Assembly (NCBI GenBank): GCA_020440825.1
Contig: JAGRNJ010000019.1
Location: 8,710-52,809 of the forward strand
Source of the DNA: Leptospiraceae bacterium
GTDB lineage: Bacteria > Spirochaetota > Leptospiria > Turneriellales > Turneriellaceae
Direction of reading: 5' to 3'
DNA: 44,100 bases
How positions within the stretch are numbered: the first letter of the stretch is position 1; every line of letters begins with the position of its first letter. Made by a program: the position numbers and the translations under genes. Under the pieces are notes generated by a model. That model worked only from the letters and a program-made list of their open reading frames with translations. It was not told the origin of the DNA and did no database searches. Of this stretch, positions 28,307-31,425 are shown piece by piece.

Positions 28307-28693
28307 ATGGCAGAAATAGATAAAATCAAAAGTGAGCTCGAAAAACTGAAGAGTGAAAATGAAAACTTACGCAACACTCTCAAAGGTTATGAAACAGTTT
28401 TACGTCTCAATGATGATGAAATCAATACTTTAGAGCAGATTGTGGCCATGTATGAAAAAATAGTCGAGTTTTCGCGAAACGAACTGTTGCGTGTTCAGGA
28501 AGATACGAAAGCGCGTGAAACCATTTCAGAATTTACACGGCAAGAATTAATGAATGCTCAAGAGATTGTCAAGGCAAGCCAGCAGGTATCAGAGCTGTCG
28601 CGTGATGAACTGATCAGTGCTCTGCACAAGATAACTGAATTGGAAAATGAGAATAAAAAGCTGAAAGAGAAAAAAACCAAGGCAATGAATTGA
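28307..28693 (+). CDS. Coiled-coil protein with three 21-residue repeats
   Basis: 128 aa, almost entirely helical with heptads, very rich in Glu and Lys, no cysteine. Residues 53-113 hold three tandem 21-residue units, each with the pattern E-[FL]-[ST]-R-x-E-L (VEFSRNEL, SEFTRQEL, SELSRDEL) starting at E54, E75 and E96. Twenty-one residues equals three heptads. No signal peptide. GGGAG lies 10 nt before ATG 28307. It is 34 nt ahead of the TPR gene. Function unknown, probably a scaffold or oligomerising partner. Confidence 0.7.
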   Translation: MAEIDKIKSELEKLKSENENLRNTLKGYETVLRLNDDEINTLEQIVAMYEKIVEFSRNELLRVQEDTKARETISEFTRQELMNAQEIVKASQQVSELSRDELISALHKITELENENKKLKEKKTKAMN

Positions 28694-28727: not shown

Positions 28728-30089
28728 ATGGATGAAATAATAACCCTCGTTCTAATTGTCGCAATTATCGGTATCGTAGTACTATTTGCGACCTATGTAT
28801 TCAAAACATATGTGATGCCGAAGAAAGTAGAAGAACTCGCAGATATGATGAAGGCTGGCCAGCTTGGTCCCGTCATCAAGCGTCTACAGAAGATGCTCGA
28901 AGAGAATGATCGGGATCCTTACATCCACTATCTTCTGGCAGAGGCTTACTATGCTCAAAAGAACCTGCCCCAGGCTGCGCTTGAGTATAAACAGGTGCTC
29001 AAAATAGGAAAGTTCAGTGGCAAGGTGAAAGAAGAAACCATTCGCTCTCGGCTTGCCAAAATCTACATGCAGAATAAAAATCTTGAAGAGGCAAAAAAAG
29101 AGTATCTAATCTTGACAAAGCTTGACCCTTCAAATGCCGAAAATTTTTATCAAGTTGGTCTGTTATTTGAAAATGCGGGTCTGGCAGAAAAAGCACTGCC
29201 ATACTATAAACAGGCTGTTAAAGTCAATAATAACCATGCGGATGCCCATTTTCACCTTGGTGTAATCGAGTACAATTTGACAAACATTGCCGAAGCAAAG
29301 GTGAATCTCTCAGAAGCTGTAAAACGCAATCCCAATTTGTATGCAGCTCACTATTATCTGGGCCTGTGCCTTAAGAATCAGAAAGATTATGATTGGGCGA
29401 TCAAAGAGCTCGACCAGGCTTTAAAAGATGAATCTTTGAAACCGAAGGCGTACCTCGCGAAAGGGTTATGCTATATGGAGAGAGACTCTTTTCAAAATGC
29501 CATCACTGAGCTTGAAAAAGGGGTTTCTGTTGCGCCAAAATCCAGCGAAATTGAATTGAATCTGCGATATTTTCTGGCAGCCTGTGCAGAACGCAAACGG
29601 GACTTTCATACAGCAATTGCCAACTGGGAGCGCATTCATGATGTTAACCCGAAATATAAAGATGTTGCTGAAAAGCTCAAAACGTATGATGAATTCAGAA
29701 CCGATGATGGTATCAAAGACTTCATGATTGCCTCACCGGGTAAATTTGAGCAGATCAGTCGGGCTTTAATCGAAAAAATGGAATTGAATATTATTGATTT
29801 GCAGGTGGTTTCTGACTCTGAAGTGCATGCAAGTGCAACAGAGATGGAGGGCAACTGGCGCAATAACAAAAGAACCAGTAAACTTATTTATCTCTTTAGA
29901 ACAACCGATCCCGTCTCAGAAAAGCAGTTGCGTGCTCTGCATGAAGAGATGCGATCATTGGGAGCGCCACGAGCGATGTGCATGACTACCAGTGAGTTCA
30001 GTTCTCAGGCAACAATTTTCTGCCAGTCTCGTCCTATTGAACTGGTAGACAAAAAAGAATTGATCAGCCTGTTGTCAGGTCTTACCTGA
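28728..30089 (+). CDS. Membrane-anchored TPR protein with Mrr-like C-terminal domain
   Basis: 453 aa. One N-terminal membrane span (about 4-26) precedes a cytoplasmic TPR array (about 58-310), with repeats such as PYIHYLLAEAYYAQKNLPQA and ADAHFHLGVIEYNLTNIAEA. Residues about 340-453 resemble the Mrr_cat restriction-endonuclease fold in the closing block (MCMTTSEFSSQATIFCQSRP, then IELVDKKELISLL), but the usual D/E-x-K catalytic residues of that fold are not evident. So the tail may bind but not cut DNA. The neighbours are the coiled-coil gene and a P-loop-like protein. The TPR part is certain; the nuclease-fold reading is tentative. Confidence 0.8.
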   Translation: MDEIITLVLIVAIIGIVVLFATYVFKTYVMPKKVEELADMMKAGQLGPVIKRLQKMLEENDRDPYIHYLLAEAYYAQKNLPQAALEYKQVLKIGKFSGKVKEETIRSRLAKIYMQNKNLEEAKKEYLILTKLDPSNAENFYQVGLLFENAGLAEKALPYYKQAVKVNNNHADAHFHLGVIEYNLTNIAEAKVNLSEAVKRNPNLYAAHYYLGLCLKNQKDYDWAIKELDQALKDESLKPKAYLAKGLCYMERDSFQNAITELEKGVSVAPKSSEIELNLRYFLAACAERKRDFHTAIANWERIHDVNPKYKDVAEKLKTYDEFRTDDGIKDFMIASPGKFEQISRALIEKMELNIIDLQVVSDSEVHASATEMEGNWRNNKRTSKLIYLFRTTDPVSEKQLRALHEEMRSLGAPRAMCMTTSEFSSQATIFCQSRPIELVDKKELISLLSGLT

Positions 30090-30099
30090 AAAATTAAAA

Positions 30100-31425
30100 A
30101 TGAATGAATCAGTTGCTACCCTGCAAAAGTGGCCAGGTTTTTCTAAGTATGAACTTGTACAACTGGGTAAATTACCATGGCAAACCGGAACTCTGAGTTC
30201 ACGACCGGTAAAGCCTGTTGCCTTTTTTTTGAATCAAGGAACTCTTCTTGAAAATGAATGCCCGCGTTCAGACCGGGATACTCTTTTTGGTGTACTGCCT
30301 TTACACAGGCAACCCGCTCGGGAATACCAGAATCTTGAGAATGCAGAAATAACCTGGATCGAGACCGAGCTTCTTGCCCGGTTTTTGATAAACCACCGGG
30401 CTGCGTTGCGTGCTTATGCAGGCAGGTTGCAACCGGGCTCGGTTACGGTCAAAATCGAAGAGAGACTCATCTGTGGAATCGCAGGTGAAGGCTCTATTTC
30501 AAAAACTCTGAGTATTGCCGAAGATTTTTCTGCCCGTGGTTTTGATGTAATCATTCTTGAACTGCAGAAGAATGGCACCACCTTCGAAGTTGATGCAGGT
30601 TTGGCCAGTCTATGCCCGATTACCGAAAGTGTAGATCCTGAGAAACCAAGTGCATTAACTCTAAGAAAAAATATCACTCTCTACAATGGCAATTTTCTCT
30701 CAACGCACAACATGTCGAGTAGTGACTTTGCATACTTCCTGGAAAAGACAAATACCCAGAACAGCGTCTGGCTTTGCCATTTTGGAGATACTTTCAGTGA
30801 GCTTATTGAAGAATGCACCGTTTGTGTGCATACCTCAGAAATTCCACAGAATAAAGAGAATTATTTATTACCGCCTCTGATGACAGGGTCTCACTTCAAA
30901 GAAATAACTGATTTTTTTGCTCGTCGAGAAAGCCTCTGGGTGTCAGATTTTGCCGGGAATGAAGCCCAATTAGAAAAGGTTCATCCGACTTCATCTTCTC
31001 GACCTTTACGGGTTCTCGAAGGGTTCAGTGCCATCGCAGTTTCTTTTCTGCAGCAAAAAACGAAATGGCAGTGGGAAAAATTTCGACCGGTATATCCGTC
31101 AAAAGGATTCTTTGATGCAAAAACTCTGCTCAAGAATATACCAAAAATTGAAAAATCCTGGCTATGGCAGGTGATTTTACCGGGACAGGTCTACGGGAGC
31201 GGGCAAGGCGGATGGATTCTGCCGGGTAACCATAGAATACCAGCAGCAATTGCACCACATCTTTTTCCCAACGGAGTTCTGCAGATTTCAGATCGCCTAA
31301 GCCATGATTGGAGCACCTCTTTTCGCAAAGGGTTTAACGCACGCTGGTGCCTGAATGCCAATATTTTTCTTGAGAACAGTGAGCGACGAAACCTGCCTCT
31401 CTGGTTGCGTCCTTTTTGGAAATAG
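30100..31425 (+). CDS. Unknown protein with degenerate ParA/MinD-like P-loop
   Basis: 441 aa from ATG 30100, 10 nt after the TPR gene. No signal peptide or membrane span. At residues 122-156 the sequence ERLICGIAGEGSISKTLSIA, then a helix and FDVIILELQ, matches the start of ParA/MinD ATPases (strand, deviant Walker A KGGVGKTT, helix, strand ending LIDLD). Here the loop is GEGSISKT: the glycine before Lys is Ser, while the Lys-Thr pair (K135-T136) is kept, and the usual Asp of the next strand is Glu. The N-terminal 115 residues look like a separate beta-rich domain, cNMP-binding-like at best. The C-terminal half is unrecognised. Convergent with the broken DUF6498-like gene. Confidence 0.55.
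   Translation: MNESVATLQKWPGFSKYELVQLGKLPWQTGTLSSRPVKPVAFFLNQGTLLENECPRSDRDTLFGVLPLHRQPAREYQNLENAEITWIETELLARFLINHRAALRAYAGRLQPGSVTVKIEERLICGIAGEGSISKTLSIAEDFSARGFDVIILELQKNGTTFEVDAGLASLCPITESVDPEKPSALTLRKNITLYNGNFLSTHNMSSSDFAYFLEKTNTQNSVWLCHFGDTFSELIEECTVCVHTSEIPQNKENYLLPPLMTGSHFKEITDFFARRESLWVSDFAGNEAQLEKVHPTSSSRPLRVLEGFSAIAVSFLQQKTKWQWEKFRPVYPSKGFFDAKTLLKNIPKIEKSWLWQVILPGQVYGSGQGGWILPGNHRIPAAIAPHLFPNGVLQISDRLSHDWSTSFRKGFNARWCLNANIFLENSERRNLPLWLRPFWK

Follow-up and report, generated by a model that had tools for sequence, protein, structure and literature searches.

The locus discussed herein raises the question of what remains of a ParA/MinD-like domain once its ATP-binding loop has been altered. 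The deviant Walker A signature of ParA/MinD proteins is KGGxGKT, and a sequence-only reading of the window, by which the whole analysed stretch of 44,100 nucleotides is meant, had noticed the motif GEGSISKT in an unrecognised 441-aa protein and proposed a ParA-fold protein with altered or lost ATPase activity. The reading frame is indeed intact (30100-31425, + strand), and its product drew no Pfam match up to E 1, cNMP_binding included; a PDB sequence search with the protein alone returned chance matches to light-harvesting proteins (E 0.34 and 0.68). Positions 30463-30570 translate to RLICGIAGEGSISKTLSIAEDFSARGFDVIILELQK. The features of the locus to which the following sections refer are listed below.

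28307-28693, + strand: 128-aa coiled-coil-like protein, just upstream of the TPR gene (neighbour cluster 4, 19 loci)
28728-30089, + strand: TPR protein with a C-terminal Mrr_cat-like domain, the partner gene (Pfam TPR; Mrr_cat E 1.6e-10)
30100-31425, + strand: 441-aa protein of three domains, cyclic-nucleotide-binding (cNMP)-like, ParA/MinD-like and pseudo-patatin remnant (open reading frame; clade HMM; directly after the TPR gene)
30100-30453, + strand: N-terminal cyclic-nucleotide-binding-like domain, residues 1-118 (VIA match to SKOR; Pfam cNMP_binding in relatives)
30457-30915, + strand: ParA/MinD-like domain without a P-loop, residues 120-272 (VIA match to MinD 3q9l; pLDDT)
30484-30507, + strand: eroded Walker A GEGSISKT, residues 129-136 (sequence; comparison with relatives)
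30553-30564, + strand: ILEL, residues 152-155, the strand bearing Glu154 (Asp there in 21/21 relatives of the P-loop branch)
30997-31347, + strand: shortened pseudo-patatin remnant, about residues 300-416, poorly predicted (clade HMM to residue 396; profile alignment of the clade with the P branch)

A syntenic protein family

The upstream TPR gene is present in 36 of the 48 genomes of the class (E <= 1e-40), and in all 17 TPR-bearing genomes of the window's order, the window included, it is directly followed by a gene of the family, although some of these family genes lie at contig ends and are partial. A search of the named genome contigs by means of the TPR alignment yielded 49 loci, 44 of which (L102-L145) are syntenic, the last five being weak TPR matches; at 23 of the 44, all outside the window's order, the next gene encodes a relative, about 560-625 aa long and in one case partial. 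The window protein by itself matched seven of the 100 related genomes searched, its own genome among them. Two loci of the clade, L103 and L104, come from metagenome bins titled Caldithrix and Hydrogenedentota, titles that look wrong; both loci carry this spirochaete operon and match genomes of the window's order.

Two groups were compared throughout, namely the window's clade of 15 members and the P branch, which consists of 21 aligned relatives from spirochaetes outside the window's order; the partial sequences L110 and L137 and L145, a near copy of L116, were left out of alignment A4, and L048 was left out of A2. Among 29 aligned family members, Pfam (E <= 0.1) recognised cNMP_binding in 18, Patatin in eight, AAA_31 in six and CbiA in three. 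The family profile matched the Borrelia ParA protein PF-32 (3k9g) in the PDB at E 4.1e-10, PKA regulatory subunits being matched as well, and its full-length alignment to the NTE-like phospholipases of the class spans 506 columns at E 6.5e-25. In profile-profile comparisons, the window's clade and the P branch were linked at E 2.7e-27 (reversed controls 0.07-0.08), the P branch and the NTE-like proteins at E 8.9e-25 (reversed about 0.4), and the window's clade and the NTE-like proteins at E 3.5e-8 (reversed 0.17-0.28). The order of domains in the family, cyclic-nucleotide-binding-like, ParA/MinD-like and patatin-like, is that of the bacterial NTE-type (PNPLA6/7-like) patatin phospholipases, which have a cNMP domain, a middle region and a patatin domain in succession.

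The ParA identity of the window protein is transitive, reached via its clade relatives and the structure model. An HMM of the 14 other clade members covers window residues 12-396 at E 2.2e-28, the best reversed decoy standing at 0.5, whereas the P-branch HMM, run against the window protein alone, reached only E 0.0086, level with a reversed decoy at 0.01, and this only over the cNMP-like part. Two short clade members, L102 (L102:2738-3997) and L120 (L120:3076-4332), are missing most of the ParA-like middle domain, and the P-branch HMM matched them weakly, at E 0.092 and 0.0034, respectively.

Structure models and the Walker A-like motif

The model of the window protein has a mean pLDDT of 68.9 and a pTM of 0.69, with residues 11-110 and 121-240 predicted well (about 81-93 per block in the latter) and most of the C-terminal half poorly, pLDDT falling below 50 after residue 249. 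VIA-align placed residues 122-272 on E. coli MinD (3q9l) with Z 12.5 and an rmsd of 2.9 over 150 residues, in a model whose alignment included P-loop relatives and which is therefore not independent of them. The N-terminal residues 1-117 aligned with the SKOR channel (8wtz, Z 11.3) and have the fold of the cyclic-nucleotide-binding domains of MlotiK1, SKOR and the PKA regulatory subunit; the Glu/Arg phosphate-binding cassette of these domains is absent from the window protein, whose corresponding stretch LFGVLPLHRQPAREYQ carries Val at the Glu position, and the cassette is not conserved across the family. Foldseek, run on the window model, returned no match at E <= 0.001 and placed implausible entries among its top rows.

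The P-branch relative L124, which retains the loop, was modelled with a pLDDT of 87.7 and a pTM of 0.90. VIA-align matched 207 of its residues to MinD 3r9j with Z 20.4, and 230 to the patatin PlpD with Z 19.1; Foldseek likewise found PlpD (4.8e-8) and a cNMP domain (1.2e-7). The ParA fold, which the sequence-only reading had staked on residues 120-160 forming a P-loop fold, is accordingly upheld by the MinD match and by the profile link to syntenic relatives with an intact GK[ST], themselves strong matches to ParA/MinD. That residues 120-160 are P-loop-like by chance, within a domain of some other kind, is a reading that we disfavour as very improbable: the region goes undetected by Pfam or the P-branch HMM when the window sequence is taken alone, but the clade HMM built without the window runs straight through it and the fold match to MinD covers it.

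The motif itself is real, occupying residues 129-136, and lies in the predicted strand-loop-helix-strand context (strand 123-128, helix 132-145, strand 149-154). Its register at the ParA/MinD site is less exact than had been supposed, since Lys135 is offset by one residue towards the N-terminus from the P-loop Lys column when the clade profile is aligned with that of the P-loop relatives. Compared with KGGxGKT, moreover, not one but two conserved glycines are replaced by Ser (132 and 134), and the signature Lys is Glu130. The proposed change of the following Asp to Glu holds, as Glu154 is the last residue of the strand that follows helix 1, where the P branch has Asp. In the window model the loop comprises residues 129-131 only and Lys135 sits within helix 1, unlike the model of L124, whose six-residue loop ends where the helix starts.

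The motif letters alone are only mildly unusual and make modest evidence, since a loosened pattern fitted post hoc to the motif occurs once in the 43 open reading frames of the window against about 0.05 expected from shuffles, and in 0.16-0.2% of shuffles of the window protein. The support for the ParA-like reading comes from the relatives and the structure rather than from these letters. The Lys-Thr pair, described earlier as kept, is present as letters, off the column and inside the modelled helix; of the 14 other aligned clade members, L104 alone has it too (SFSKT), and because so few share it, it may be a coincidence and no conserved remnant.

Lys135-Thr136 might alternatively form a shifted, unusual P-loop that still binds nucleotide, the ATPase being altered rather than lost. 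The pair lies almost at the right place, 19 residues before the switch strand (measured from sequence) against 20 in L124, and SKT appears in L104 too. We consider this unlikely, given Glu at the signature Lys, Ser at two glycines, Glu at the conserved Asp, the position of Lys135 one column off in a modelled helix, and the 13 other aligned clade members that have no such Lys-Thr. The idea of a ParA fold whose ATPase is lost or altered is supported; the same substitutions, together with a loop missing from the clade, fit lost or altered nucleotide binding, and the window protein probably no longer binds ATP.

Fate of the loop and of the catalytic residues

Across the P branch, the GK[ST] end of Walker A is kept in 15 of 21 sequences and the Walker A Lys is lost in the other six (L116, L121, L122, L126, L131 and L133); L124 is the sole one of the 15 to carry the signature Lys of the deviant Walker A. 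The Asp of the strand after helix 1 is present in 21/21 P-branch sequences and in all five aligned Turneriella-type ones, and the Walker-B-like Asp in 21/21. These are features shared with the SIMIBI P-loop ATPases of the ParA/MinD type (MinD 3q9l, Borrelia PF-32 3k9g), whose fold window residues 122-272 have in common, although in this family the domain is fused between two others. The window protein has the fold, but its loop is eroded and the glycine-bearing GK[ST] P-loop, the signature Lys and the strand-end Asp are absent. The P-loop is eroded in the window's clade, a Lys-Thr near the site occurring in the window and L104 only.

A tree computed after removal of the P-loop columns fully supported the split between the clade of 15 and the branch of 21, and gave the window protein a very long branch (2.6). 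The state of the loop changes at least five times on this tree; the count itself gives no direction, and we read the changes as losses, because homology to ParA would make the loop ancestral.

At the position of the patatin catalytic Asp, none of the 21 P-branch sequences has Asp (16 Ser, 4 Ala and 1 Asn, counted by eye), the nucleophile position is Ser in 14 of 21 (also counted by eye), and the oxyanion glycines are absent in 21/21. The window protein, whose pseudo-patatin region is modelled at low pLDDT, contains neither a DG dipeptide nor GGG anywhere in its sequence. Neither the P branch nor the window protein therefore possesses the Ser-Asp dyad and oxyanion glycines of the NTE-type enzymes, from which they differ in this respect.

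Gene neighbourhood

In 19 loci the TPR gene is preceded by the coiled-coil-like gene, whose product in the window has 128 aa. RseC-like, GreA and DUF1015 genes lie upstream in P-branch loci, and genes downstream encode, among others, a second TPR protein and one that weakly matches a six-hairpin glycosidase. In 18 loci the family gene is succeeded by neighbour cluster 5, whose proteins measure about 150-190 aa and have no Pfam match (e.g. L134:9170-9613). The Mrr_cat-like domain of the TPR partner has a restriction endonuclease fold and also matches weakly NA-iREase1, an inactive version; judged by this sequence match, the operon may encode a second pseudoenzyme in this partner.

At five of the six Leptospiraceae-type loci (L139-L143), the slot of the family gene is occupied by a GAF-SpoIIE-HATPase protein of about 920 aa; at the sixth, L138, none was found in the slot. 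This exchange suggests that the window protein might replace an RsbU-type phosphatase as an input to STAS partner switching. A STAS gene follows the GAF-SpoIIE-HATPase gene in four of the five loci, and one lies nearby, downstream, in 17 of 22 P-branch loci, but none is found near the family gene in any of the 15 loci of the window's order, and replacement at a locus need not imply a common function. We regard such a role as rather unlikely for the window protein.

In the window's own genome, cNMP and patatin matches occur separately, and no full-length NTE-like protein was detected at E <= 1e-30. The patatin domains of this genome lie in frames of 347 and 375 aa, and Turneriella-type relatives have a full NTE-like protein.

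Selection and function

As no near relative of the window gene was available, selection was gauged on pairs of other family members. By the Nei-Gojobori method, the clade pair L103/L106 gave a dN/dS of 0.18 against 0.08 for the TPR partner, and the pair L125/L134 gave 0.16 against 0.02; in four other family pairs dS was saturated or nearly so, which leaves their dN/dS unusable or doubtful. Close pairs of the family are under purifying selection, the family evolving faster than its TPR partner yet remaining constrained. The window protein is therefore probably a working pseudoenzyme.

A decaying gene, that is a functionless remnant on its way to becoming a pseudogene, would account for the shortened C-terminal part, the very long branch and an identity of about 20% to the nearest relatives, compared with 72-74% for the TPR partner. 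This is improbable in view of the intact reading frame, which stands at the same place throughout the order, and of the purifying selection in the clade pair.

The explanation that we hold to be rather probable is that the window protein belongs to a rapidly evolving spirochaete family built like the NTE-like proteins, has lost both the ATP loop and patatin catalysis, and acts as a non-catalytic scaffold or regulator together with the TPR protein. Domain order, synteny, the lost motif residues and the purifying selection of close pairs, all obtained by computation, are what it builds on. Gene order points to the partnership with the TPR/Mrr_cat-like protein encoded directly upstream, and a scaffold or regulator is the likeliest role that we infer. 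Across the P branch examined the patatin part is without its catalytic residues, and in the window's clade the ATP-binding loop is gone as well. Dimerisation or docking is probably under the control of ATP where the loop is intact, and in the window's clade the ParA/MinD-like domain would be frozen in one state and used as a binding surface. The sequence-only reading had noticed neither the cNMP-like and pseudo-patatin domains on either side nor the operon partner, nor that the Lys-Thr pair is no conserved remnant.

Relation to NTE-type phospholipases

In the open-licence literature, subscription papers being outside the scope, no description of a cNMP-ParA-patatin fusion or of this spirochaete family was found. 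The pieces are of known kinds, and the fusion of an intact P-loop with a dead patatin, with repeated loss of the loop, appears to be new.

A bolder reading holds that the middle stretch of NTE-type proteins is itself derived from ParA/MinD and that the spirochaete family is the missing link, in which the loop was kept, the lipase was lost and the switch was repeatedly turned into a fixed surface. Comparison of the middle domain alone gave a weak match between the P branch and 19 NTE-like sequences (two of 21 having been dropped as near copies) at E 6.7e-4 (reversed 0.3), and E 8.1e-7 for the window's clade (reversed 0.63); subgroups G1 and G4 were uninformative here. By eye, no GK[ST] loop is seen in the middle region of those active NTE-like proteins that were inspected, in contrast with the majority of the P branch. 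As the profile support is weak, a common origin of the middle domain is not taken as a result, and we put the bolder reading forward as a tentative and somewhat doubtful one.

The human NTE protein has no named domain at residues 749-981 in the domain list given in one review (PMC9025805). If the NTE middle part shares the ParA/MinD origin, this stretch of a human disease protein would acquire a testable identity. For the spirochaetes, the family brings together two failed enzymes and a ligand-sensor fold in one protein, beside a partner conserved across spirochaetes, and it offers a natural series for learning what a ParA/MinD domain does once ATP is no longer bound.
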